Positions 6,174-64,000 of a stretch of DNA of 64,000 nucleotides are shown here, piece after piece. The stretch comes from an uncultured Alistipes sp. (GTDB taxonomy: Bacteria; Bacteroidota; Bacteroidia; Bacteroidales; Rikenellaceae), in contig CALVCS010000008.1 of assembly GCA_944326035.1 (NCBI GenBank), positions 35,637 through 99,636 on the forward strand, read 5' to 3'. A program made the position numbers and the translations under genes. Each line of letters starts with the position of its first letter. The first letter of the stretch is position 1. Below the pieces are notes generated by a model. The model was not told the origin of the DNA. It saw only the letters and a list, made by a program, of their open reading frames with translations, and searched no databases.

Positions 6174-8480
6174 ATGCAGGATAATCTGGTCATCGTCGAA
6201 TCTCCGGCCAAAGCCAAAACCATCGAAAAGTTTCTGGGCAAAGACTATGTCGTCAAGTCGAGCTTCGGTCATATCCGCGACCTGTCCAAAAAAGAGTTGG
6301 GCATCGATATCCAACACAACTTCACGCCGCACTACGAAATCTCGCCCGACAAGAAAAAAGTCGTCGCCGAGCTGGAAAAACTCGCAAAATCGGCCAAAAC
6401 CGTCTGGTTGGCGTCCGATGAAGACCGCGAAGGAGAGGCCATCTCGTGGCACCTGTCGCAGGTGCTGAACCTTGACCCCAAAACCACCAAACGAATCGTA
6501 TTCCACGAAATTACGAAAAACGCGATTCTGCACGCCGTCGAAAACCCTCGTTCGATCGACATGAACCTGGTCAACGCGCAACAAGCGCGTCGTATTCTGG
6601 ACCGGCTGGTGGGTTTTGAGCTCTCCCCGGTGCTGTGGAAAAAGATCAAACCCTCGCTCTCGGCCGGACGCGTCCAAAGCGTGGCCGTCCGTCTGATCGT
6701 CGAACGGGAACGCGAAATCATGGCCTTCCAACCGACCGAATATTATCGGGTCGTTGCCGATTTTACCCTGCAAGACGCGCAAGGTCAAACCACCACCTTC
6801 AAGGCCGAACTGAATAAACGCCTCGCTACGGAACAAGAGGCCCTGGCCCTGCTGGAACGCTGCAAAACCGCCACTTTCCAGGTGCTGCACGTCGACCAGA
6901 AACCCTCCAAACGCAATCCGCCCGCTCCGTTTACCACCTCAACGCTCCAACAGGAAGCCGGCCGTAAATTGGGCATGTCCGTTTCGCAGATCATGTCGGT
7001 CGCTCAACGACTTTACGAAGCGGGGTATATCACCTACATGCGTACCGACTCCGTCAACCTGTCGGGACAGGCCATCGCTGCCGCCAAAGAAGAAGTCATC
7101 CGGGAGTTCGGTGAAAAATACAGCGAAGTCCGCAACTTCAAAACCAAAACCAAAGGGGCTCAGGAGGCTCACGAAGCAATCCGCCCCTCTTACATGAATC
7201 GCTCGGAAATCGACGGCACCTCGCAGGAAAAACGCCTTTACAACCTGATCTGGAAGCGCACCATGGCCTCCCAAATGGCCTCGGCTCAGATCGAGCGTAC
7301 GATCGTGGATATCGCAATCGACGGAGCCCCCGAACGCTTCGTAGCAACGGGTGAGGTCATCAAATTCGACGGTTTCTTGCGGTTGTACTCCGAAGCGACC
7401 GAAGATGACAACTCGGAACACGAAACGGCCATTTTGCCGGTATTGCAGGTCGGTGACCGCCCCGAAGCCAAAACGATCACCGCCTCCCAACGCTTTACGC
7501 AATCCCCGGCCCGATACAGCGAAGCTTCGCTGGTGAAACACCTGGAAGAATTGGGTATCGGACGACCTTCCACCTACGCCCCGACTATCTCCACGATCAT
7601 CACCCGCGGGTATGTCGTCAAAGAAAATCGGGAGGGGGTCAAACGCGAATACCTGCAGTTGAAACTGGACAAAGGCAAACTGTCACGCAAAATGCTCAGC
7701 GAGCAGGTAGGAAAAGAGAAAAACAAGCTCTCCCCGACCGACATTGGCATGATTGTCACCGACTTCCTCGACGAACAATTCGCCGCCATCATGGACTACA
7801 ACTTCACGGCCACCGTCGAAAAACAGTTCGATGAAATCGCAGAAGGGACCAAAAGCTGGGTGGATATGTTGAAAGAATTTTACAGCGCCTTCCACCCCAA
7901 AGTCGATCAGGCCCTCGAAAGCCAACCGGTGAAGAGCAATCAACCCCGTCTGTTGGGCACCGATCCCAAAAGCGGTAAACCGGTCTTTGTGAAGGTCGGT
8001 CGGTTCGGACCCGTCGCCCAAATCGGTGGCGCCGAAGGCGATCCGGACAAACCCCGCTTCGCCAGCCTGAAAAAGGGACAACTCGTCGCCTCCATCACCT
8101 TAGAAGAGGCCCTGGATCTGTTTACCCTACCCCGCCATATCGGGTCGTTCGAAGACAAAGAGGTGGTGATCGGGATCGGTAAATTCGGTCCGTATGTCCG
8201 GCACGACGGCAAATTCGTCTCGCTGGCCCGTACTGACGATCCCTACACGATCGAACTGCCTCGAGCCATCGAACTGATCGAAGAAAAACGCCGCAAAGAT
8301 CAAAAAAGCAAAGAGCCGATCCAAACATTTGCAGAAGAGCCCGGTCTGCAGGTGCTCAACGGACGTTATGGACCGTACATCGCTTTCAACGGGAAAAATT
8401 ACCACATTCCCAAGAGTGAGGATCCCGCCACCCTGACGCTGGATCAGATTCGGGAAATCATCGCCAAATCGAAAAAATAA
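6174..8480 (+). CDS. topA: DNA topoisomerase I TopA
   Basis: Type IA topoisomerase that relaxes negative supercoils by cutting and rejoining one DNA strand. The N-terminal Toprim domain starts at once with LVIVESPAKAKTIEKFLG and carries the metal-binding DEDREGEAISWHL at about residues 82-94. The catalytic tyrosine is in YITYMRTDS near residue 288. The C-terminal part has glycine-rich repeats (GRFGPVAQIGG, GKFGPYVRHDG, GRYGPYIAFNG), which are topoisomerase C-terminal repeats, but no cysteine zinc fingers of the E. coli type, as is common in Bacteroidota. The 768-residue length is normal. It converges with rluD and shares a strong hairpin terminator with it. Confidence 0.97.
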   Translation: MQDNLVIVESPAKAKTIEKFLGKDYVVKSSFGHIRDLSKKELGIDIQHNFTPHYEISPDKKKVVAELEKLAKSAKTVWLASDEDREGEAISWHLSQVLNLDPKTTKRIVFHEITKNAILHAVENPRSIDMNLVNAQQARRILDRLVGFELSPVLWKKIKPSLSAGRVQSVAVRLIVEREREIMAFQPTEYYRVVADFTLQDAQGQTTTFKAELNKRLATEQEALALLERCKTATFQVLHVDQKPSKRNPPAPFTTSTLQQEAGRKLGMSVSQIMSVAQRLYEAGYITYMRTDSVNLSGQAIAAAKEEVIREFGEKYSEVRNFKTKTKGAQEAHEAIRPSYMNRSEIDGTSQEKRLYNLIWKRTMASQMASAQIERTIVDIAIDGAPERFVATGEVIKFDGFLRLYSEATEDDNSEHETAILPVLQVGDRPEAKTITASQRFTQSPARYSEASLVKHLEELGIGRPSTYAPTISTIITRGYVVKENREGVKREYLQLKLDKGKLSRKMLSEQVGKEKNKLSPTDIGMIVTDFLDEQFAAIMDYNFTATVEKQFDEIAEGTKSWVDMLKEFYSAFHPKVDQALESQPVKSNQPRLLGTDPKSGKPVFVKVGRFGPVAQIGGAEGDPDKPRFASLKKGQLVASITLEEALDLFTLPRHIGSFEDKEVVIGIGKFGPYVRHDGKFVSLARTDDPYTIELPRAIELIEEKRRKDQKSKEPIQTFAEEPGLQVLNGRYGPYIAFNGKNYHIPKSEDPATLTLDQIREIIAKSKK

Positions 8481-15408: not shown

Positions 15409-16602
15409 TTATGCCCGATCCAGCTCCTGTAACGCCAAGGCCGACAAGGTTGCCACCCCCACCTCCAAAGCCTCCTCATTGGGGCAAAAAGTCGGCGTAT
15501 GCAACCCTCCGGCCTCGCGACCATCCGAATAACCTACCCCCAACCGATAAAAAACACTGGGGTAGTGCTGGGTATAGGAGCCGAAATCCTCGGCCGTCAT
15601 CCGTAACGACAATTCGGTGATGCGATCGGCTCCCCACAAGGCCGTAAACACCTCCCGCGCCCGGGCACTAACCACCGGATCGTTCACCACACACGGATAG
15701 CCTCCCGGGGCCACATTGACTTCGATCTGCACGCCATGAGCCTCACCCACCCCACGGGCTATCTCATGAATACGTTCCAGCGCCCGGGCTCGCCATCGTT
15801 CATCCATCGTCCGCAACGTCCCCTCCAGAAAGACCTCCGAAGGAATGACATTTGTCGCACCATCGGCCATCACCCGTCCGAACGACAACACCGTGGGAAT
15901 GGTCGTATCGATATTGCGGCTAGCCACCTGCTGTAATGCCATCAACAACGCGGCCATGGCCAGAACCGGATCCGCCAACAGATGAGGCAGTGCGGCATGT
16001 CCGCCTCGGCCCCGTACCGTGATCCGAATCTCATCGCTGGAGGCCATATACTTCCCGCTACGCAACCCCAGCTGTCCGGCCGGCAATTCCGGAGCCACAT
16101 GTTCGCCGATAAAAGCCCGAACATCATAGTCCCGGAACGGATCTTCCGCCAATACCTGAGAGGCTCCCCCCGGACTCAGCTCCTCGCCCGGTTGGAAGAG
16201 TCCGAAAACGGTTCCCTGGATCTGATCCCGATGGGCCTGCAGCAGATACATCGCGCCCAACAGACATGCTGTATGGATGTCATGTCCACAAGCATGCATC
16301 ACTCCCGGGTGTTGCGACGCAAATGGCACCGATACCTTTTCCTGAATCGGCAAAGCGTCCATATCCGCTCTTAACACCACACAACGTTTCCGGTCGCCCT
16401 GGCCTTCGATTCGGGCCAATAATCCCGTTCCGGCAATCGACTCATACGGAATTTCCGCCTGGGTCAAACATTCCGCCACATACTTCGACGTTTCATGCTC
16501 CTGAAACGACAGTTCCGGATAGGTATGCAGATGACGCCGAAAAGCCAACGTCTGCTCTCGCCCTTCATGGGCCGCTTTTTTAATCGATTCGTAATCCATC
16601 AT
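15409..16602 (-). CDS. M20-family amidohydrolase (N-acyl amino acid or dipeptide deacylase)
   Basis: A 397-residue zinc-dependent amidohydrolase of the M20D group, which removes acyl groups from amino acids (hippurate hydrolase, N-acetyl-diaminopimelate deacetylase and similar). Metal and catalytic residues are in place: VLRADMDALPIQE near residue 77, HACGHDIH (Cys105, His107) and GLFQPGEE with the general-base glutamate near residue 140. A second metal His lies in GGLHTPTFCPNEEAL near the C-terminus. The dimerisation domain (GRGGHAALPHLLADPVLAM) separates the catalytic halves. No signal peptide is seen, so it acts in the cytoplasm. The exact substrate cannot be read from sequence, and the neighbours do not narrow it. 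Confidence 0.9.
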   Translation of the reverse strand: MMDYESIKKAAHEGREQTLAFRRHLHTYPELSFQEHETSKYVAECLTQAEIPYESIAGTGLLARIEGQGDRKRCVVLRADMDALPIQEKVSVPFASQHPGVMHACGHDIHTACLLGAMYLLQAHRDQIQGTVFGLFQPGEELSPGGASQVLAEDPFRDYDVRAFIGEHVAPELPAGQLGLRSGKYMASSDEIRITVRGRGGHAALPHLLADPVLAMAALLMALQQVASRNIDTTIPTVLSFGRVMADGATNVIPSEVFLEGTLRTMDERWRARALERIHEIARGVGEAHGVQIEVNVAPGGYPCVVNDPVVSARAREVFTALWGADRITELSLRMTAEDFGSYTQHYPSVFYRLGVGYSDGREAGGLHTPTFCPNEEALEVGVATLSALALQELDRA

Positions 16603-16730
16603 GATTGTTTATCTTCCTTTCCTTGCCCTCTGGCTACTGTATCCATCTGCAAAGCTGCTCGGCACCCGCCGCAAACCTGCTTCCGTCTTTTTCTCCGCAG
16701 CCCCCGAGGGCAATCTCTTTCTCTGTATAG

Positions 16731-19313
16731 CTAAGCTAACTGTTGGTCCAAAATCGCCACAACATCGAGCGGCCCAGCCGCATAATAGACCGGAGCTCCA
16801 TATAACGGAGCCAACGTTTTTTCCACCCAAGCGGCATCGACGGCCGGGCCACTGACCACCAGTGGCACCCGCAAGCCCCGACGACGAGCTTCCATCCCTA
16901 TCCGGAGCATCTCTTCCCGGCCTCCTTCCAGGACAGCCTGCAAAACGAGCGCCATCGCCCCACAACGCAAGGTTTCATTTACTACTCGCAAAGCCAAAGG
17001 CCTTCCGCCGAGGTTTTCCACCTCATACCCCCACGCCTGCAAGATCGGCAACAAGGCATTTTTCCCGAAATCTTGTACGTCGCTTGCCAACGAGGGAAGC
17101 ATCACTCGCCCTTTGGGGTTCGTTATGGGATCAATCCGACGGCTCAAAAGCGTCGAAATCTGACGGATCACCTTACCGCTACGTACCCATTGCGGCACAA
17201 ACAACGCCCCGCTTTCGAACCACGCATACAGCTGTTTGATCGACTCATTCCACGGTCCCTCGAGTCCCTGACGAAGCTCGCCCCACGCCGCACAGAATGT
17301 TTCCACCAACGCCTGCGGATCCTCCGTCCGAGCCTGCACCAGGGTGCGAACCAACTGGGCCGACACCGTTTCGTTGTCGGGATCGGTTTTGAAACCCGTT
17401 TCGGACCGAGCGATGCCCGACCACGCTTTTAACCGGGAGGGAGCCTCCGAACGACGCCCCAACACCAAATCCTCACAACGTTCCCGCAAATCGGGATCCA
17501 TCTCTGTATAAACGAGCGTCAACGCCGCAGGATCTACCCAACCCAGGGTAACCCCGGCTGGTACCGCATGATATAACCACACGGTACTCAAGCCGGCACG
17601 AATCCGGGCATCATCCGCATAGGGTTCCGTAAATGCGTCCACATCCGCAAACAACCGTGCCTCGGGACAATGAATTCTCATCCACCGACACGCCTCGATA
17701 CAATCCACCGACGCGCTGACCTTCTGTCCATCCTCGGTGGCGGCCGGAGGCAGAATCGGATCGAAAATAAGCTCTTCAGGAGGCATGCCGGCGCCGGTCA
17801 ACAGTCCATACATTCGACCTGCTATCCCGATCCGCCGTGCATAACTGTCGGCTTCGCCCTGTTCATCCGCCAATCGTAAAATAGGCAGCGCCCCATAACG
17901 CAACACCTCCTGCACCTCTGTCAACAAAGCCCGATCGCCTTGCGCGAGCGACAGCGAGCGCACCAGCGATTTCCCCTGAATACAAGACAACGCAGCTTTC
18001 CACAGTGCCTCCCGACCGATATCGATCAGCCACGGTACCCGCGCTACGCCCGGATCGGACATAGCCAGATTTAGCAACTTCCTCACCTCCTCTGCACCTA
18101 TATCATCTCCGGCTTGCCATCGCAGACCCATGATCTGAGCCCCTTCTCCTACCTGAGCCGACAGCAACCCCAACGCGCTTTCATATTGCCCGGCACGCAC
18201 CTTCTCCTCGAAGGCCGCCCGTTGCGAACGGGCACCGGCCCCTATGACGATAAATGAGCCCTCTCCCGACCAGGAGAGATCTTCCAGTCCACTCAAACGC
18301 GTCACGCGAGAGGGGGCAGGAAGCGGACGGGGCGCATAACGCGCCGCCACGGCGGCCACGGCTTCGATGTGTGCCGGCGTCGTTCCGCAGCATCCTCCCA
18401 CGATATTGACCAACCCCTGTTGCAGGTAGGATTCCATCGCCGTCGCCATACTTTCCGGCGTCTCCGCATAGCCGCCATTGCCATCCGGCAATCCGGCGTT
18501 GGGATGTACCGAAACGGCGCAATCGGCCACCTGAGCGATGCGTTCTATAAACGGCAACATCTGTTCGGCCCCCAGGCCACAATTCAAGCCGACCGACAAG
18601 GTGTTGGCGCGCCGCACCGAGGTGTAAAATGCCTCCAAAGTCTGTCCGGAGAGGGTCCGTCCACTGCCATCGGTCAACGTCCCGGAGACCATCGCCGGAA
18701 TCCGCCCTTCGCGGTGTGCATTGACTTCATCCAGTGCATACAGCGCCGCTTTTGCATTGAGCGCATCGAAACACGTCTCGATGAGAATCACATCGACACC
18801 CCCATCAATCAACCCCCGAATCTGTTCACGATAGGTCTTCGCCAGCTCGTCGAATGTGACCGAACGGGCCGCCGGATCGTACAAATCGGGCGACAGCGAA
18901 GCCGTCCGATTGGTCGGCCCGACCGACCCCGCCACAAACCGCGGTTTCGAAGGCTGCTGAGCCGTATAGCGATCCGCCAACCCCCGAGCCAAGGCTGCTG
19001 CCTGCCGATTGATTTCATACACGAAGTCGACCAACCCATAATCGGCCAGCGAAATCGCATTGGCATTAAACGTATCGGTCGTGATGATGTCGGCCCCGGC
19101 CTGCAGATAGGCTTCATGTACCTGGGCCACCGCTTCGGGCCGCGTCAAGACCAGCAAGTCGTTGCACCCTTTGAGCGAAGCCGACCAGTCGGCAAATCGT
19201 TCGCCTCGATAATCAGCCTCTTCCAGGCCATAGCGTTGAATCATGGTTCCCAGCCCGCCATCCAATACCAGCAGGCGACGGGAAAGCTCGTCGTAAATAG
19301 AAAATGGAGACAT
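16731..19313 (-). CDS. Divergent MetH-like protein with intact homocysteine domain but altered folate and cobalamin sites
   Basis: The 860 residues follow the order of cobalamin-dependent methionine synthase: homocysteine domain (about 1-325), pterin domain (about 352-620), cap and cobalamin domain (about 640-860). The homocysteine domain is well conserved, including LDGGLGTMIQ and zinc cysteines Cys245 (GLNCGLG) and Cys308/Cys309 (GGCCGTTP). In the pterin domain the NVGERTNVTGS element of MetH is replaced by VIGAGARSQRA (residues 356-366) and the MIDSSKW element by LIDIGRE. The cobalamin DxHxxG motif reads DVQDFG (745-750), so the cobalt-ligand histidine is Gln747, and the SxL and GGA loops are also lost. 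The reactivation domain is absent. The frame is intact and lies 64 bases behind the cyclotransferase gene. It may be a homocysteine methyltransferase using another donor, or a non-catalytic derivative. Confidence 0.75.
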   Translation of the reverse strand: MSPFSIYDELSRRLLVLDGGLGTMIQRYGLEEADYRGERFADWSASLKGCNDLLVLTRPEAVAQVHEAYLQAGADIITTDTFNANAISLADYGLVDFVYEINRQAAALARGLADRYTAQQPSKPRFVAGSVGPTNRTASLSPDLYDPAARSVTFDELAKTYREQIRGLIDGGVDVILIETCFDALNAKAALYALDEVNAHREGRIPAMVSGTLTDGSGRTLSGQTLEAFYTSVRRANTLSVGLNCGLGAEQMLPFIERIAQVADCAVSVHPNAGLPDGNGGYAETPESMATAMESYLQQGLVNIVGGCCGTTPAHIEAVAAVAARYAPRPLPAPSRVTRLSGLEDLSWSGEGSFIVIGAGARSQRAAFEEKVRAGQYESALGLLSAQVGEGAQIMGLRWQAGDDIGAEEVRKLLNLAMSDPGVARVPWLIDIGREALWKAALSCIQGKSLVRSLSLAQGDRALLTEVQEVLRYGALPILRLADEQGEADSYARRIGIAGRMYGLLTGAGMPPEELIFDPILPPAATEDGQKVSASVDCIEACRWMRIHCPEARLFADVDAFTEPYADDARIRAGLSTVWLYHAVPAGVTLGWVDPAALTLVYTEMDPDLRERCEDLVLGRRSEAPSRLKAWSGIARSETGFKTDPDNETVSAQLVRTLVQARTEDPQALVETFCAAWGELRQGLEGPWNESIKQLYAWFESGALFVPQWVRSGKVIRQISTLLSRRIDPITNPKGRVMLPSLASDVQDFGKNALLPILQAWGYEVENLGGRPLALRVVNETLRCGAMALVLQAVLEGGREEMLRIGMEARRRGLRVPLVVSGPAVDAAWVEKTLAPLYGAPVYYAAGPLDVVAILDQQLA

Positions 19314-19377: not shown

Positions 19378-20469
19378 TTACTTTTTGAAAACTTCTACCT
19401 CAAAAAGCTTTTTCCAATACTTGCCGGTCACGAAAATGCGTCGGCGTTGAGCGTCATAGGCAATGCCATTGAACACATCGGTCTCGGGACCGATATCGGA
19501 TGGAGAGAGCAGTCCGCTCATGTCGATCACCCCGGTGACAGCTCCCGTATGGGGATCGATGCGAACGATCTTGTCGGTCGTGTAGACGTTGGCCCACAAC
19601 TCGCCGTCAATCCACTCCATCTCATTCAGATATACGATCTTGCTCTGATCCGTATACACTTCCAGGGTGCGAATCGTCTTGAAGGTTTCCGGATCCCGTA
19701 CTTTGATCTTTTCCGTACCGTCGCTCATATACAACCACCGGCCGTCGGTCGCCAATCCCCACCCCTCACCGGCATAATTGAACTCGCCGAGCTTTTCGAA
19801 GGTCGATCGGTCATACACCAACACTTTATTATTCTGCCACGTCAATTGATACAACTTATCCCCGAGCCGTTCCAGCCCCTCGCCGAAATAGTCGCGCGGC
19901 AGGTTGAGGTTCTGCAACACGACGCCCGTCGTCAGATCCACCTTCCGCAACGAGGATTGGCCCTGCACCCCGGTACTCTCATACAACGCACCCTTATACC
20001 AGAGCAACCCTTGTGTATAAGCCTCCTTATCATGGGGATAAACCCGTTTCACCCTATGCCCGTACAGTACCGGCGGATCGGCGGCCAAGACCGTAAATTC
20101 GCCCACCCGATCTTCCTTTTCTCCCGCCTGATAGGCCGTCAGCGTATAGATCAAACGTCCCGTCGGATGGTTCCGACGAACCCGGTAAAGATAACCGGTC
20201 GAATCCACAGCACACAATCGCTCTCCTTTGACCGACAGCACCACACTGTCGACCGGCGTATCCGACTCGAGCGCATAGCGAATCCGGATCGTATCGCCTT
20301 GCCGCACCTGCGTACCGTAAACGGGCCATACCGAAGCGATCAAATGCAACGGTTGCTGTTGCGTCGCACCTTTCGTCGCCGAATCCCCTCCGGCGCCGCC
20401 ACATGACAACATGACACCCATGGTCATCGCCACGGCTGCCACCCATCCGAGTCCTCCAGTTATTCGCAT
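19378..20469 (-). CDS. Glutaminyl-peptide cyclotransferase-like lipoprotein
   Basis: A beta-propeller glutamine cyclotransferase of the plant/bacterial type, which turns N-terminal glutamine of exported proteins into pyroglutamate. The chosen 363-residue protein has a lipoprotein signal ending in the lipobox GVMLSC near residue 23, then an Ig-like region and the propeller. The propeller carries HDKEAYTQGLLWYKGALYEST, YFGEGLERLGDKLYQLTW, GEGWGLATDGRWLYMSDG and the ELWANVYTTDKIVRIDP motif. It probably acts in the periplasm. The open frame extends to a TTG at 20493, but the -7 box at 20491-20498 overlaps that codon, so the ATG at 20469 is the start. Confidence 0.87.
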   Translation of the reverse strand: MRITGGLGWVAAVAMTMGVMLSCGGAGGDSATKGATQQQPLHLIASVWPVYGTQVRQGDTIRIRYALESDTPVDSVVLSVKGERLCAVDSTGYLYRVRRNHPTGRLIYTLTAYQAGEKEDRVGEFTVLAADPPVLYGHRVKRVYPHDKEAYTQGLLWYKGALYESTGVQGQSSLRKVDLTTGVVLQNLNLPRDYFGEGLERLGDKLYQLTWQNNKVLVYDRSTFEKLGEFNYAGEGWGLATDGRWLYMSDGTEKIKVRDPETFKTIRTLEVYTDQSKIVYLNEMEWIDGELWANVYTTDKIVRIDPHTGAVTGVIDMSGLLSPSDIGPETDVFNGIAYDAQRRRIFVTGKYWKKLFEVEVFKK

Positions 20470-20490
20470 CCCCAGGAATTTAGATTTACA

Positions 20491-20498
20491 CAAAGGTA
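20491..20498 (-). promoter_or_regulatory. -7 box of the cyclotransferase gene
   Basis: TACCTTTG on the minus strand, about 22 bases before the ATG at 20469. No clear TTTG lies at the expected -33 position, so only the -7 half is convincing. Its place rules out the longer TTG start. Confidence 0.55.
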
Positions 20499-22242: not shown

Positions 22243-22274
22243 TTTGCTCTTCCGCCAAAGTATCGCTACCTTTG
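22243..22274 (+). promoter_or_regulatory. Bacteroidota-type promoter of the GH106 gene
   Basis: TTTG at 22243-22246 and TACCTTTG at 22267-22274 are separated by 20 bases, a good consensus match. Transcription would begin near 22281, so the upstream in-frame TTG at 22244 cannot be the start codon, and the ATG at 22322 is used. Confidence 0.75.
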
Positions 22275-22321
22275 AAAAAGGCTTCGGCCCCGATACGTTC
22301 TTTTTTCCTCTATCGTATACC

Positions 22322-25300
22322 ATGAAAAACTACCTACCCAAAAAACAGACTTTTTATCGTTGGGCTTTCCTTTCGTGCCTTCTGTTCGGAAGCACCGCCT
22401 GTGGGCCTACCCGCACCGACCAACCCGAACCGCTACCCCCTCAATGCAGCGTCACGGAGGCCCAGAATCTCACCCAACTCTCCGAAAACTTTCTGCACCC
22501 CGGCACCGAAAATCAAGCCTGGGTCTACTGGTTCGTTATGGACGGGAACCTCTCTCGGGAGGGCATTAAAGCCGACCTGGACGCGATGAAACGAGCCGGC
22601 ATCGGCGGCGTCATCTTCCTGGAAGTGAACGTCGGCATTCCCCGTGGTCCGGTCGATTTCATGAGCCCCGAATGGATCGAACTGTTCAAATATGCCTGCG
22701 AAGAGAGCGAACGCCTGGGTTTATCGCTTTCGTTGATTACCGGCCCCGGATGGACTGGCAGCGGTGGTCCCTGGGTCAAACCCGAAGATGCCATGCACTT
22801 CATCGTCGCCGATACACTCACCGTGCACGGAGGGCAAACCATCCGGGTACAGCTTCCCCGGCCTCAACCCCGTACGCCCTATTTTGGCATGAACAACCTG
22901 ACCGACAGCATGAAACAACAGCGTGCAGCATACTACCAAGACCTGTTCGTGCTGGCCTACCCCAAAAACAAACCCGGCACTCCCCTCGAAGATATTGACC
23001 GTAAAGCCTTTTATGTCCGTCATCCCTACTCCTCGTCACCGCTGGCAAAACCCTACCTGCCCGTTCGGGCCACCTACCCAGCCCTGCCGGAAGGTGTCGC
23101 CCTGCAAACCGATCGGTGTATCGATCTGAGTGAACATGTTTCCGCGGACGGGCTGCTCGAATGGGAGGCTCCGGCCGGCGAATGGATCGTGTACCGTTTC
23201 GGACAGACGCTGACCGGCGCCAACACCCGTCCTTCGCCTCATGCCGGCGTCGGCTTCGAGTGCAGCAAAATGGATACAACCGCCCTCAACCACCATTTGG
23301 ATGCCTATATCGGCGCCCTGATGAAGGCCGTAGGCAAACAACCGGGCTATCAGACCAGCGGCTGGAACATGTTACACATCGACAGCTGGGAGATGGGACC
23401 CGAAAACTGGAGCGACGATTTCTACGACGAATTCCAGAAACGACGCGGTTACGATCCCCGTCCCTACCTGCCCACCCTCACCGGACAAGTCGTCGACAAT
23501 ACGGAAATCTCGGAACGGTTTCTGTGGGATCTGCGCCAGACGGTGCAGGAACTGATGCTGGAAAATCATGCCGAACATCTACGTCGGTACGCCCACCAAT
23601 ATGGCTTCGGACTGTCGATCGAGCCCTATGACATGAGCCCTAACAACGATATCGCCCTGGGAAGCATCGCCGATGTCCCGATGTGCGAGACCTGGGAAAA
23701 AGACGACCTGTTCAATACGGCCTTCAGTTGCATCGAAGCCGTTTCGGCAGCCAATCTGTACGGCCGACCCATCGTGGGCGCCGAAGCCTTCACCAGCCAC
23801 AACAAAAAATTCTGGAGAGTACACCCGGGCAATATGAAAAATCAAGCCGACTGGGCCTTCTGTATCGGCATCAACCGGTTGGTTTTCCATCGCTACGCTC
23901 ATCAACCCTGGACCGACCGCTATCCGGGTATGACCATGGGCCCGTACGGCATGAACTATGAACGCACGCAAACCTGGTGGGAACTCTCCCAAAGCTGGCA
24001 CACCTACCTGGCTCGTTGTCAATACCTGTTACGACAAGGTCGTGGCGTGGCCGACATTCTGTTCCTGACCCCGGAAGGGGCCCCGATGGCCTTCATGCCA
24101 CCCGAAAGCGCTTTGTCCGGTTCCAAACGGCTGCCCTTCAAGAAAGGGTACAATTTCGACGGGTGCGACCCGAAAACCTTGCTCAGTGCACAGGTTCGGG
24201 ACGGCAAGATCGTCTTCCCCAGCGGCATGGAATACCGCATTTTGGTGTTGCCCACCGAAGAGACCATGACCCCGACCCTCTTGACCAAAATCGAAAGCCT
24301 GGTGCGCGACGGAGCGACCGTCATGGGCTTTGCGCCCCAGAAATCTCCCAGCCTCCAGAACTATCCCCAAGCCGATCAGGAGGTCGAACAGTTGACCGCA
24401 CGACTCTGGGGCGATAGCCAACCGGGGACCATTCGCTCGATCGGGAAGGGAAGGCTGATTCACAGCGCTGCATCCGACACCACGGGAAATGAGCCCAGTG
24501 TCCGGGGCTATCTGCCGCCCTATGTTCGCTATGAGGTGATCGCCGAAGCTCTTCGTGCACAGGGCGTTCAGCCCGACTTCGAAGCCGACGCGCCCTTGCG
24601 ATACATCCACCGGACTCTTCCTGCGATGGATATCTACATGGTTTCAAACCCCGATACGACCTCCCGTTTCGAAGGTTCGGCCACCTTCCGCATCCAGGGC
24701 AAAAAGGCCTCCCTGTGGGATGCCTCCACCGGACAGATCGCCCCGATCTCCGTCGAGGCTACCCATGACGGACGTTCGCGGATCGCGCTCTCGCTGGATC
24801 CCAGCGGATCGCTGTTCGTTATCTTCAGCGACGAAGATCCCGCCGACCGCTGCAACACCCAAACCCTCTGGTCGACATGGCAACCAGTCAAAACCCTCAC
24901 AGGACCCTGGAATGTCCAGTTCCAAGCCGGCCGCAAAGCTCCCGAGCAAGCGACCTTCGACACGTTGATCGACTGGAGTCAGCACGCCGATCCGGGCATT
25001 CGGTACTTCAGCGGCATCGCCGACTACACCCTCACCTTTACCCTGACCGACCAGGAACGCGCCGCCTACTCGAACTGGAGTCTGGATTTAGGGAAGGTCG
25101 CCGTCATCGCCCGGGTCGAACTCAACGGACATCCCATTACCGAACTCTGGAAAGCCCCCTATCGCTGCGACATCACCCCCTATCTGCAAACGGGTGAAAA
25201 CAGCCTACGTATCTCGGTGGCCAATGAATGGCCCAACCGTCTGGCCGGTGATCAACGCCTGCCGGAATCCGAACGGGTCACCTTCGCCACCTACTCTCCC

Positions 25301-25369
25301 ATCACCCGAGACTTTACCCTGCTGCCCTCGGGTCTCCTCGGGCCCGTCGTTCTCTGCGGCGCAAAATAG
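22322..25369 (+). CDS. Glycoside hydrolase family 106 lipoprotein (alpha-L-rhamnosidase type)
   Basis: A 1015-residue exported enzyme of the GH106 group, whose studied members release alpha-L-rhamnose from pectin-type glycans. A signal peptide with lipobox STAC near residue 27 places it on the outer membrane or in the periplasm. The catalytic barrel opens with WFVMDGNLSREGIKADLDAM and GIGGVIFLEV. Further GH106-like blocks are LSLITGPGWTGSGGPWV and a long central region rich in Trp and Glu, including HIDSWEMGPENWS. A C-terminal beta-sandwich (WSLDLGKVAVIARVELNG...) ends the protein, as in related enzymes. No SusC/SusD pair or regulator adjoins it, so it is not in a classic utilisation locus. 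The activity on rhamnose is inferred from the family only. Confidence 0.85.
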   Translation: MKNYLPKKQTFYRWAFLSCLLFGSTACGPTRTDQPEPLPPQCSVTEAQNLTQLSENFLHPGTENQAWVYWFVMDGNLSREGIKADLDAMKRAGIGGVIFLEVNVGIPRGPVDFMSPEWIELFKYACEESERLGLSLSLITGPGWTGSGGPWVKPEDAMHFIVADTLTVHGGQTIRVQLPRPQPRTPYFGMNNLTDSMKQQRAAYYQDLFVLAYPKNKPGTPLEDIDRKAFYVRHPYSSSPLAKPYLPVRATYPALPEGVALQTDRCIDLSEHVSADGLLEWEAPAGEWIVYRFGQTLTGANTRPSPHAGVGFECSKMDTTALNHHLDAYIGALMKAVGKQPGYQTSGWNMLHIDSWEMGPENWSDDFYDEFQKRRGYDPRPYLPTLTGQVVDNTEISERFLWDLRQTVQELMLENHAEHLRRYAHQYGFGLSIEPYDMSPNNDIALGSIADVPMCETWEKDDLFNTAFSCIEAVSAANLYGRPIVGAEAFTSHNKKFWRVHPGNMKNQADWAFCIGINRLVFHRYAHQPWTDRYPGMTMGPYGMNYERTQTWWELSQSWHTYLARCQYLLRQGRGVADILFLTPEGAPMAFMPPESALSGSKRLPFKKGYNFDGCDPKTLLSAQVRDGKIVFPSGMEYRILVLPTEETMTPTLLTKIESLVRDGATVMGFAPQKSPSLQNYPQADQEVEQLTARLWGDSQPGTIRSIGKGRLIHSAASDTTGNEPSVRGYLPPYVRYEVIAEALRAQGVQPDFEADAPLRYIHRTLPAMDIYMVSNPDTTSRFEGSATFRIQGKKASLWDASTGQIAPISVEATHDGRSRIALSLDPSGSLFVIFSDEDPADRCNTQTLWSTWQPVKTLTGPWNVQFQAGRKAPEQATFDTLIDWSQHADPGIRYFSGIADYTLTFTLTDQERAAYSNWSLDLGKVAVIARVELNGHPITELWKAPYRCDITPYLQTGENSLRISVANEWPNRLAGDQRLPESERVTFATYSPITRDFTLLPSGLLGPVVLCGAK

Positions 25370-28049: not shown

Positions 28050-29009
28050 ATGAATCAACCTTTCTCCATACGCCAACGAGCTCTTGAGCTGGGTTTTGAC
28101 GACTGCCGCATCGCCCACAGCCGCGAACTGACCGAACAACGCGAACGGTTGTCGGAGTGGCTCTCCTCCGGACGATACGGCGGGCTGCACTACATGCAAC
28201 GCAACGTCGACAAACGTATCGATCCCGGCCTCTTAATGAAGGGGACCCGCAGCGTGATCGTCTGCGCCATGGGATATAAACGCGCACCGGCTCCTCAACC
28301 CTTTCTGAACCACATCGCGTCCTATGCCTGGGGAAAAGATTATCATCTCGTCATCCGCGAAAAGCTGAAACAACTGCTGCACGACCTACAAACGGCATAT
28401 CCGGGCAGCGCCGGGCGCGTTTTCGTCGATACGGCCCCGTTACTCGAAAAAGCCTGGGCGGTCGAAGCCGGTTTAGGTTGGATCGGTCGCAATTCGTTGT
28501 TGATTCATCCGGTGCTGGGCTCTTATCTGCTGCTAGGGGTGATTCTCACCACGGTCGAGCTACCGCCCGACGCCCCGATAAACGGCAGTTGTGGAAGCTG
28601 TCGTCGTTGCCTCGACGCCTGTCCGTCCGGAGCTTTAGGCGAGGATCGGATGCTGGACGCCCGTCGCTGCATCGCCCGCCGCACCATCGAAGAGGCCACT
28701 CCGGGCGAGGAAGGCGAACTGCATGGATGGATTTTCGGCTGCGATGTCTGCCAACGTGTCTGCCCCTATAACCGGCAAGCCCCTGAAAGCCGACATCCGG
28801 AACTGGACCCCCTGCCCGACCTCCTCACCCTCTCTCCGCAAGCGTGGCTGAGCCTCGACGAAGAGACGTTCCGGAGCCGTTTCCACGACAGTCCCCTCGC
28901 CCGCTGCGGGCTATCCCGTTTTCAATACCGTATCCGCGCCTATCTCCATTCGACCGATCCGTCCAAAGAGGCCCCGCTTGACGACGTGATCCGTTCATCC
29001 CAGGAGTAA
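28050..29009 (+). CDS. queG: Epoxyqueuosine reductase QueG
   Basis: QueG is the cobalamin- and iron-sulfur-dependent enzyme that reduces epoxyqueuosine to queuosine in tRNA, the step after QueA. The 319-residue length fits. The N-terminal half carries VFVDTAPLLEKAWAVEAGLGWIGRNSLLI near residues 129-157. Two ferredoxin-like clusters follow: CGSCRRCLDACP near residues 180-191 and CDVCQRVCPYN near residues 231-241. If this enzyme is active, the organism must obtain a cobamide, which matters when judging the altered cobalamin site of the MetH-like protein at 16731-19313. It is divergent from the acyl-CoA ligase gene. Confidence 0.95.
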   Translation: MNQPFSIRQRALELGFDDCRIAHSRELTEQRERLSEWLSSGRYGGLHYMQRNVDKRIDPGLLMKGTRSVIVCAMGYKRAPAPQPFLNHIASYAWGKDYHLVIREKLKQLLHDLQTAYPGSAGRVFVDTAPLLEKAWAVEAGLGWIGRNSLLIHPVLGSYLLLGVILTTVELPPDAPINGSCGSCRRCLDACPSGALGEDRMLDARRCIARRTIEEATPGEEGELHGWIFGCDVCQRVCPYNRQAPESRHPELDPLPDLLTLSPQAWLSLDEETFRSRFHDSPLARCGLSRFQYRIRAYLHSTDPSKEAPLDDVIRSSQE

Positions 29010-30053: not shown

Positions 30054-30431
30054 TTAACCGATCAATTTGGCATAATCATCGGGAGACAACAAGCTGTCGA
30101 GTTCAGCCGGGTTGGTCATTTTGATCTTGACCATCCAGCCTTCGCCATAAGGATCCTTGTTCACCTGATCCGGCGCATCATTGAGGGCTTCGTTAAATTC
30201 CAACACTTCCCCGCCTACCGGCAAAAAGGCATCGGATACCGTTTTAACGGCTTCAACCGTTCCGAAAACTTCGCCCTGAGCGAGCGTTTCCCCTACGGTG
30301 GTCACGTCTACAAAGACGATATCGCCCAATTGGCTCTGGGCAAAATCGGTAATCCCTACATAGGCTTCATCGCCTTCGACCCGGATCCATTCGTGATCTT
30401 TCGAGTACTTCAAGTTGGATGGAATGTTCAT
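30054..30431 (-). CDS. gcvH: Glycine cleavage system H protein
   Basis: A 125-residue lipoyl carrier that shuttles the aminomethyl group between the P, T and L proteins of glycine cleavage. The block [34 protein letters not shown] begins near residue 9. The lipoylated lysine lies in [13 protein letters not shown] near residue 63. No gcvP, gcvT or lipoyl synthase gene lies in this window. It has its own promoter and is co-transcribed with mdh. It could also carry lipoate for other complexes, as known for some H proteins. Confidence 0.96.
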
Positions 30432-48693: not shown

Positions 48694-50096
48694 ATCAGGA
48701 ACTCCCGTATAAGGTCGCTGACATCGACCTGGCCGGCTGGGGACGCCGGGAAATCGAAATGGCCGAAAAAGAGATGCCCGGTCTGATGGCCGTCCGTCGT
48801 AAATACAGCGCTTCGAAACCCCTGAAAGGCGTCCGGATCATGGGCTCGCTGCACATGACCATCCAAACCGCCGTATTGATCGAAACCCTGGTCGAACTGG
48901 GCGCCAACGTTCGCTGGTGCAGTTGCAATATCTTCTCGACCCAGGACCATGCTGCGGCCGCCATCGCAAAAACCGGCGTGCCGGTTTTTGCCTGGAAAGG
49001 CGAAACGCTGGAAGATTATTGGTGGTGCACGGCCATGGCCATGAGCTTTCCCGGAGGACTGGGACCTCAACTGATCGTCGATGACGGCGGGGATGCCACT
49101 CTGCTGATTCATAAGGGGTATCGTGGAGAAAACGACCCCACAAGTTTGAAATATGAACCCTCCAACCACGAAGAAGCCGTCATTCTGGACACCCTGCTCC
49201 GCCTCCAACAGGAGGACCCGACCAAATGGCATCGTACGGTCGCCGAGTGGAAAGGCGTGTCGGAAGAGACGACCACCGGGGTACACCGCCTTTATCAAAT
49301 GCAGGCTCGCGGCGAGTTGCTCGTGCCGGCCATCAATGTCAACGACTCCGTTACCAAAAGCAAATTCGACAACCTGTACGGCTGCCGCGAATCGCTGGCC
49401 GACGGGATCAAACGCGCAACGGACGTGATGCTCGCCGGGAAAGTCGTTGTCGTGTGCGGTTATGGCGATGTAGGGAAAGGATGCGCCATGAGCATGCGCT
49501 CGTACGGTGCTCGGGTCATCGTCACCGAAATCGACCCGATCTGTGCCCTGCAGGCCGCCATGGAGGGATTCGAAGTACGCACCGTCGAAGATGTACTGGA
49601 CGAAGGCAACATCTATGTCACCACAACCGGTAACTGCGACATCATCCGCATCGAACACATGGAACGCATGCGCGACCAAGCCATCGTCTGCAACATCGGC
49701 CACTTCGACAACGAAATCCAGGTCGACAAACTGATCGCCTTCCCCGGAATCGTCAAAACCGAAATCAAACCACAGGTCGACAAATATACCTTCCCCGACG
49801 GACACTCGATCTTCCTGCTGGCCGAAGGACGTCTAGTCAATCTGGGCTGTGCCACCGGTCACTCGTCGTTCGTGATGAGCAACTCGTTCACCAACCAGGT
49901 GCTGGCCCAAATCGAACTGTGGACCAAACCGCTCGATGTCGACGTCTACCGTCTGCCCAAACAGCTGGACGAAGAGGTGGCTCGTCTGCATCTGGATGCA
50001 CTGGGTGTTCACCTGACCCGTCTCACCCCCAAACAGGCCGCTTACATCGGGGTCGAAGTGGATGGGCCCTACAAAGCCGATTTTTACCGTTATTAA
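48684..50096 (+). CDS. ahcY: Adenosylhomocysteinase AhcY
   Basis: AhcY splits S-adenosylhomocysteine to adenosine and homocysteine, keeping methylation reactions running. The 470-residue length is standard. The substrate domain has [20 protein letters not shown] near residue 53, [15 protein letters not shown] and [26 protein letters not shown] carries the catalytic Lys and Asp near residue 222. The NAD domain has [14 protein letters not shown] near residue 256. The C-terminal KADFYRY is the family end motif that completes the partner's NAD site. The homocysteine it produces is the natural substrate of MetH-type enzymes; the MetH-like protein at 16731-19313 is distant in sequence and position. 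It overlaps the riboflavin kinase gene by 10 bases. Confidence 0.98.
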
Positions 50097-63888: not shown

Positions 63889-63892
63889 GAAG

Positions 63893-64000
<108 letters not shown>

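Follow-up and report, generated by a model that had tools for sequence, protein, structure and literature searches.

The 860-codon reading frame described here is a diverged metH gene at the usual metH locus and not a paralogue. Its product keeps the homocysteine-binding module of the cobalamin-dependent methionine synthase MetH, and the residues that usually bind folate and cobalamin are gone. By analogy with MtgC/MtgE and core-MetE, on which our proposal rests, we put at about 0.5 the probability that the protein is still a zinc-dependent homocysteine methyltransferase, that it has been cut off from folate, and that it likely receives its methyl group from a separate methyl-corrinoid protein whose gene lies elsewhere in the genome. 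The gene lies in a window (the whole stretch of DNA that was analysed, 64,000 nucleotides) from an uncultured Alistipes sp. whose assembly (G000) comprises 2.31 Mb and is 99% complete; G003 (record CALVFO010000025.1), also an uncultured Alistipes sp., is its closest relative in the genome set. The features of the window are collected in Table 1.

Table 1. Features of the metH region and related genes in the window
Feature	Position	Strand	Basis
M20-family peptidase/amidohydrolase gene, downstream neighbour	15409..16602	-	PF01546; synteny
128-bp gap between the altered metH and the M20 gene; site of metF in intact relatives	16603..16730	-	metF in L057, L058, L060; none in the window, L055, L056
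MetH-derived gene, 860 aa, usual folate/cobalamin binding residues gone	16731..19313	-	open frame; collinear with MetH
Cobalamin-like Rossmann module (residues 733-860, with the stop codon); the reactivation domain that follows in relatives is missing	16731..17117	-	15/47 columns; 3iva match
Gln747, replacing the cobalt-ligand His of DxHxxG	17073..17075	-	alignment
Helical region resembling the cap (residues 631-732), under the weakest constraint	17118..17423	-	8/29 invariant columns; dN/dS 0.41
Folate-barrel module (residues 340-630); predicted to retain its fold, folate-binding motifs lost	17424..18296	-	52/104 invariant columns; 3k13 match
Homocysteine-binding module, residues 1-339, intact	18297..19313	-	PF02574, 324 bits; 51/51 invariant columns kept
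Zinc ligand span (Cys245 18579-18581, Cys308 18390-18392, Cys309 18387-18389)	18387..18581	-	alignment
Glutamine cyclotransferase-like gene, upstream neighbour	19378..20493	-	PF05096; synteny
QueG	28050..29009	+	TIGR00276, 286 bits, cut-off 200
GcvH	30057-30431
Adenosylhomocysteinase, expected homocysteine source	48708..50090	+	TIGR00936, 624 bits, cut-off 498

The metH locus and the absence of metF

The frame runs for 860 codons without stops on the minus strand (16731-19313); an earlier note on this DNA had recognised the open frame and left out the strand. The protein aligns collinearly with human MetH over residues 10-854, and therefore the motif changes described below, which the earlier note had reported with a warning about alignment, are not the product of misalignment; the match of the predicted fold also excluded this cause. 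In Pfam, S-methyl_trans (PF02574) scored 324 bits, Pterin_bind 30.1 bits (cut-off 25.5) and B12-binding 27.5 bits, below its cut-off of 32.1, and Met_synt_B12 gave no match on the protein. The TIGR02082 metH model gave 726 bits, below the cut-off of 1010.85 (about 1011), and its match stops at model position 856 of 1182. Comparison with PHROGs gave no match. The sole Rfam match in the window, the corrinoid operon L040 and the locus L056 was a 5S rRNA, and no riboswitch was found in these three regions.

In G001, G004 and G005 the gene order is glutamine cyclotransferase, metH, metF and M20 gene; in G000, G003 and G006 metF is missing from an otherwise equal order. In G008, G002 and G007 metF directly follows metH by match coordinates, the frame listing of G008 containing no separate metF frame. 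MTHFR (PF02219) was not found in the G000 genome. Among the nine same-genus genomes, the three without MTHFR all have an altered metH, and the six with it all have intact motifs; the metH of G002 is split over two contigs, both pieces having intact motifs. Over the complete set, MTHFR is missing in eight of 41 genomes: G000, G003, G006 and five without any MetH match. MetE (PF01717) was detected in none of the 41 genomes, G000 included, and in 10 of 14 control genomes. The earlier note had proposed a genome search for a second MetH or a metE; both were ruled out in G000 by the PF02574 and PF01717 searches, the former finding no second homocysteine methyltransferase domain. The adenosylhomocysteinase gene in the window implies that homocysteine should arise in the source organism, and GcvH points to continued production of one-carbon folate. 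Cobamide use by the organism, as had been argued from QueG, which we take to be a cobamide-dependent enzyme, is further supported by a corrinoid protein with the motif DLHDIGKN.

Three protein searches, each covering at most the best 120 of 7,998-7,999 candidates pre-selected by shared words, gave at least 13 distinct variants, after the 99% duplicates P0002 and P0124, the 601-aa fragment P0131 and the disrupted P0122 had been dropped. Among the matches listed, the short variants (P0002-P0007, 801-862 aa) resemble the window protein, and the long ones (P0124-P0130 and that of G006, 1182-1254 aa) keep the reactivation domain. Each group was monophyletic with a support of 100 in a wider tree of the homocysteine module. 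A narrower tree of this module joined G006 and the short clade with a support of 0.22; independent origins were considered on this account and overturned by a tree of three neighbouring genes, rooted with outgroups, which unites G000, G003 and G006 (95 with and 88 without the homocysteine module), and by the wider homocysteine-module tree uniting G006 and the short clade (76). Since the three genomes form one clade, metF loss and metH alteration among the nine genomes are most simply explained by one event, not three. It is likely that metF and the binding sites were lost first, and the reactivation domain later in one subclade only. A related-locus DNA search returned the contig of G003 itself and one ordinary alphaproteobacterial MetH, and thus added nothing to the DNA available for the variant clade. 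That the clade with the altered metH also lacks metF in that very operon strengthens the case made in the earlier note.

Retained and lost binding sites

The protein has the homocysteine module of a MetH with its three zinc cysteines. Cys245, Cys308 and Cys309 are present as had been described, and all three occur in the 13 distinct variants (13/13) and in the intact relatives (26/26). Counts of the columns that do not vary among 25 intact relatives, being whole-module counts, are free of the selection effect mentioned below; they bear out the conserved homocysteine domain: 51/51 are kept in G000, 51/51 in G006 and 47/51 jointly in six short variants. The corresponding values are 52/104, 50/104 and 38/104 for the folate module, 8/29, 6/29 and 2/29 for the cap (residues 631-725), and 15/47, 19/47 and 6/47 for the cobalamin module (residues 726-840). 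G002, with its split gene, G015 and G035 were left out of the 25 intact genomes. The intact rows had been preselected by a three-motif test that G000, G003 and G006 failed, so that the invariance of those motifs partly reflects this choice of rows. Realignment of the 13 variants with 25 full-length intact rows, for which P0035 was added as a 26th intact relative, gave 73-80 of 81 columns kept for the homocysteine module, 46-67 of 109 for the folate module, 3-10 of 28 for the cap and 15-21 of 49 for the cobalamin module. Over the 300 pairs of the 25 intact relatives, mean identity is higher in the folate module (0.756) than in the homocysteine module (0.624); in the 21 variant pairs listed this is reversed, the homocysteine module being the more conserved.

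Compared with human MetH, NVGERTNV has become VIGAGARS and IDSSKW has become IDIGRE, in agreement with the replaced NVGERTNVTGS and MIDSSKW elements of the earlier note; DVHDIG has become DVQDFG, and the altered SxL and GGA loops were seen as VLQAVLEGG for GLSGLITPS and SGPAVD for GGATTS. The methyl-folate motifs of MetH (GERTNV, IDSS, NS, DPN, SN) are thus not found, D483 and D518 remaining. E359, N452, N520 and N560 are replaced in 13/13 distinct variants, and D483, D518, D745, G750 and K751 are retained in the six short variants. How the lost residues individually contribute to folate binding is assumed here from knowledge of the MetH family. At the cobalt-ligand position, where Gln747 was confirmed, the 13 variants have Q, G or Y and all 26 intact relatives have His; the DxHxxG histidine is given as the cobalt ligand in excerpts of PMC10567725. 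No residue of the folate or cobalamin module is both new with respect to the intact set and fixed across the 13 variants. Shared new conserved residues were considered as a mark of a new function: the short clade has some, none of them common with the long clade in these two modules.

The protein has no AdoMet reactivation domain, as the earlier note had said, and no full domain (PF02965) was found in the genomes of G000 or G003; thus G000 has it neither in the protein nor elsewhere, its other match being a partial one (26 bits to PF02965) in the corrinoid operon. Since Bacteroides thetaiotaomicron carries a reactivation domain on a separate protein (excerpts of PMC7311316), this absence is not odd by itself in the phylum. 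Among the long variants, an ordinary evolutionary rate is kept by the reactivation module and not by the folate and cobalamin modules; this is expected if the reactivation module serves a separate corrinoid protein, but the replacement of its GY tyrosine by I or M in 7/7 long variants speaks against such action.

The predicted structure of the protein had a pLDDT of 89.3 and a pTM of 0.89, and it superposed on 9ssp at 2.0 Å over 630 and on 9cbp at 3.8 Å over 811. Taken separately, the folate module matched 3k13 (2.0 Å over 282 residues) and the cobalamin module 3iva (1.5 Å over 133 residues). The overall fold is predicted to be still that of MetH and, given these predicted folds, the folate and cobalamin modules seem to be kept as shapes that have lost their ligands.

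Possible methyl donors and constraint on the gene

A stand-alone corrinoid protein with an intact DxHxxG motif (DLHDIGKN) is encoded at G000:C4:67496-68128. It belongs to the operon L040 on contig C4, whose genes stand in a row on one strand. Their products are a GntR-type regulator, an aldo/keto reductase, a URO-D-type protein, an MFS transporter, the corrinoid protein, a partly MetH-activation-like protein and a second protein of the URO-D type, which carries a His-Cys...Cys motif. The corrinoid protein shares 33-41% identity with the cap-cobalamin module of each intact MetH (25/25), and its best NCBIfam match was an MtgC model with 228 bits, below the cut-off of 370. All three MTHFR-less genomes carry such a separate intact protein (93% identity in G003, 82% in G006). 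It also occurs in G001, G002 and G005, that is, in three of the six relatives with intact MetH and MTHFR, and none was found in G004, G007 (69% complete) or G008. Of the L040 genes, just three are clustered in G006, G001 and G005, namely those for the corrinoid, the activation-like and the second URO-D-type protein. URO-D matches numbered six in G000, nine in G003 and five in G006; the MTHFR-bearing genomes had two (G001), five in four frames (G002), none (G004), two (G005), none (G007) and none (G008). The altered metH and the corrinoid gene lie on different contigs (C8 and C4), without genetic linkage.

In the proposed pathway, outside methylated compounds, instead of methyl-folate, would charge the stand-alone corrinoid protein through MtaA/URO-D-type methyltransferases. 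This protein would dock on the homocysteine module, replacing the disabled internal cobalamin module, and would hand the methyl group to zinc-bound homocysteine to give methionine, the folate and cobalamin modules possibly acting as a structural or docking scaffold. More tentatively, a lineage of gut Bacteroidales may have turned MetH into a folate-independent 'core' synthase with dead scaffold modules, charged in trans by a stand-alone corrinoid protein that a set of URO-D-type demethylases would feed with methyl groups from outside compounds. Several observations speak against a corrinoid-fed enzyme. The corrinoid genes are unlinked and are shared with three relatives that have intact MetH and MTHFR, and the MTHFR-bearing G002 has about as many URO-D matches as G006. 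The His-Cys-Cys URO-D methyltransferase of the corrinoid operon could itself be the thiol methylator. The GY tyrosine is lost in the long variants and, with no new residue common to the 13 variants, no sign is seen of a new function shared by the variants in their folate and cobalamin modules. The disrupted P0122 and the distribution of differences between P0001 and P0002, both described below, point the same way.

The homocysteine module might instead use a small-molecule donor (S-methylmethionine, AdoMet or betaine) in the manner of MmuM or BHMT, with the remainder of the protein as a scaffold. MmuM and BHMT have a three-cysteine zinc site and share the homocysteine barrel, but they use small-molecule donors and have no folate- or cobalamin-like modules. 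Likeness to them is expected of any MetH homocysteine barrel, and the scores of the protein were far under the cut-offs (121 bits against 215 for the MmuM-type model, 134 against 338 for the BHMT model). A new site might also have altered some of the 51 invariant positions, which are unchanged in G000 and G006. We consider a donor of this kind unlikely.

Methionine could also be made by the second URO-D-type protein (L040:10858-11862), the MetH-derived protein then being a non-catalytic homocysteine-binding or regulatory protein. The URO-D-type protein scored 108-134 bits, below the cut-offs, with MtaA/MtbA-type thiol methyltransferase models, and it has the zinc motif H-N-C...C; its gene is present in all three MTHFR-less genomes, with 79% identity between G000 and G006. 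Related Mlp proteins of the URO-D superfamily are likely S- or Se-methyltransferases (excerpts of PMC10418091). But the same kind of gene is found in G001, G002 and G005, which have MetH and MTHFR, and such a role would give no reason for the zinc cysteines kept in every variant; we regard it as rather improbable. The earlier note had read the gene as undecayed and without folate and cobalamin sites, which stands; its 'non-catalytic partner' becomes less likely, the protein having the sole homocysteine-methyltransferase domain found in a genome with a SAH hydrolase gene.

A third possibility is slow decay, methionine synthesis having been abandoned after metF loss and metH being a relic. The losses of metF, of the folate and cobalamin residues and, in the short clade, of the reactivation domain would fit it, and HTS (PF04204) is absent in 9/9 genomes, but it is equally absent from the relatives with intact MetH. 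Between G000 and G003, dN/dS was 0.08 for the homocysteine module, 0.18 for the folate-like module, 0.41 for the cap (residues 640-725) and 0.12 for the cobalamin-like module, values that are rough at a dS of about 1.35, near saturation; four intact metH pairs gave module values of 0.05-0.16. This comparison, a per-domain check suggested in the earlier note, indicates purifying selection in all modules, weakest in the cap, and the low dN/dS outside the cap argues against decay of the altered metH. In neutral simulations of the 522 codons that follow the homocysteine module, 4/1000 runs were stop-free at 0.1 substitutions per site and 0/1000 at 0.2. Because neutral runs gain stops by 0.2 substitutions per site, compared with a pairwise dS of 1.35, the stop-free frame is beyond chance. 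Open frames were found as DNA in G000, G003 and G006 and as full-length proteins in ten further variants; the marks of a pseudogene (stops, frameshifts or a dN/dS near 1) were not seen, the G000-G003 values being 0.08-0.41. The exception is P0122 from another assembly, a 358-aa, 99% identical piece of the altered gene with a changed end, which may reflect a broken allele or a faulty assembly; it is a result of the sort that the earlier note had named as evidence against its reading. P0001 and P0002 have 10 differences, every one after residue 356, as expected under weaker constraint on the later modules. P0122, these differences and the cap value favour decay. Against it stand 13 distinct normal-length variants in two subclades, the values of 0.08-0.18 outside the cap, the stop-free frame and the nearly unchanged homocysteine columns, so that we hold decay to be improbable and the view that the gene is not decayed is maintained.

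That the protein is an ordinary MetH which tolerates unusual folate loops and a Gln at the place of the cobalt-ligand His is hardly credible: D483, D518, D745, G750 and K751 in the six short variants and the predicted MetH fold would suit it, but E359, N452, N520 and N560 are lost throughout, the His column has Q, G or Y, no MTHFR was found for methyl-folate, and no full reactivation domain was found in G000 or G003.

Known systems and meaning

With cobalamin-dependent MetH (TIGR02082) the altered protein shares the orthologous locus, the collinear modules, the zinc-homocysteine module and the predicted overall fold; it differs in the lost folate and cobalamin residues, the reactivation domain missing from the short clade, the missing metF and a score below the cut-off. 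The MtgC/MtgD/MtgE system of Ruegeria and Phaeobacter combines a homocysteine module with a separate corrinoid protein, as is proposed here, but MtgE is a separate homocysteine subunit, whereas the module studied here forms one chain with folate-like and cobalamin-like modules and is not a stand-alone PF02574 protein (excerpts of PMC12478193). According to the same excerpts, methyl-folate still feeds methionine synthesis through MtgD, unlike in our proposal, and the split Mtg system did not separate from MetH. Of the features of an MtgE-type system, the genome has the stand-alone corrinoid protein and not the genetic linkage. The MesA-MesD and core-MetE proteins synthesise methionine independently of folate, with a corrinoid donor proposed, similarly to the proposal made here (PMC7857596 and PMC7005905, both in excerpt), and Dehalococcoides has a core-MetE and no metF (same excerpt of PMC7005905). 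These proteins belong to the MetE superfamily, of which no PF01717 member was found in the genome (0/41 genomes). The altered MetH is outside both the MtgE and the core-MetE families. Type I mlp gene clusters, for which methionine salvage has been proposed, resemble L040 in having URO-D-type methyltransferases and a corrinoid protein without a folate methyltransferase, but they contain a Ram/RACE activator, where L040 has a partial MetH-activation-like protein, and the altered metH lies on another contig (excerpts of PMC10418091).

Among the matches listed from the open-licence literature, in the excerpts consulted, neither a MetH-derived folate-independent synthase nor metF loss in the Rikenellaceae was found; the folate-independent methionine synthases described in these excerpts are of the MetE type, and the split B12 systems are described as not derived from MetH (PMC7857596, PMC7005905, PMC12478193). 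If the proposal is true, MetH itself would have lost folate and its own B12 with most of its chain kept, and the gene for methyl-folate supply would have gone from the operon. The intact enzyme, the long variant and the short variant would form a natural series for the rewiring of a modular enzyme, and a metH annotation alone would not establish that a gut bacterium makes methionine with B12 and folate.

Reactivation domain in the long variants

The long variants of the diverged metH gene (locus L055:6504-10235 and proteins P0124-P0130) retained the reactivation domain, which scored 269 bits in G006, a same-genus genome without MTHFR. In these long variants the domain has evolved at an ordinary rate, despite the lost cobalamin site, and each of the seven aligned sequences carries I or M in place of the tyrosine of its GY motif. 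Relatives with an in-frame stop codon inside the matched domain or in the modules preceding it are included in the table.

Coordinates of the features, in the window or in fetched genomes and loci
Feature	Location	Remark
Large gene adjoining serS	window 22244-25369
5S rRNA gene	window 63890-64000	minus strand
O-acetylhomoserine sulfhydrylase, stand-alone gene	G000:C12, L078:6658-7947	599 bits, cut-off 495
In-frame TGA inside matched reactivation domain	G016:C89:14942-15724
In-frame TAA inside matched reactivation domain	G018:C33:7810-8571
In-frame TAG inside modules before reactivation domain	G020:C1:2888285-2890747
Cluster of three URO-D-type genes	G000:C11 (L079:7650-11365)
Cluster of four URO-D-type genes	G003:C17 (L081:6249-11541)

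Methyltransferase-like genes, sulfhydrylase substrate and other features

The three URO-D-type (methyltransferase-like) genes clustered in G000, the genome of the window, contain H-x-C or H-x-D, without the third cysteine. Regarding the source of the substrate for the O-acetylhomoserine sulfhydrylase, the HTS family PF04204 was found in none of the nine same-genus genomes searched.

The large gene beside serS occupies the same position in G000, G003 and G006, and none was seen in the neighbourhoods of intact relatives (L057-L060). The 5S rRNA gene lies at the window terminus, which is also that of the contig.

Split and disrupted genes

In an Alphaproteobacteria MAG, MetH with normal motifs is encoded by two overlapping frames (L042:8681-12649) that join at the border between the homocysteine and folate modules. 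Protein P0122, encoded on a contig of 81426 bases, is a 358-aa fragment of the diverged metH gene (99% identity) that starts at residue 502 and has an altered C-terminal end; it may represent a broken allele, or else an assembly error, in a different strain.
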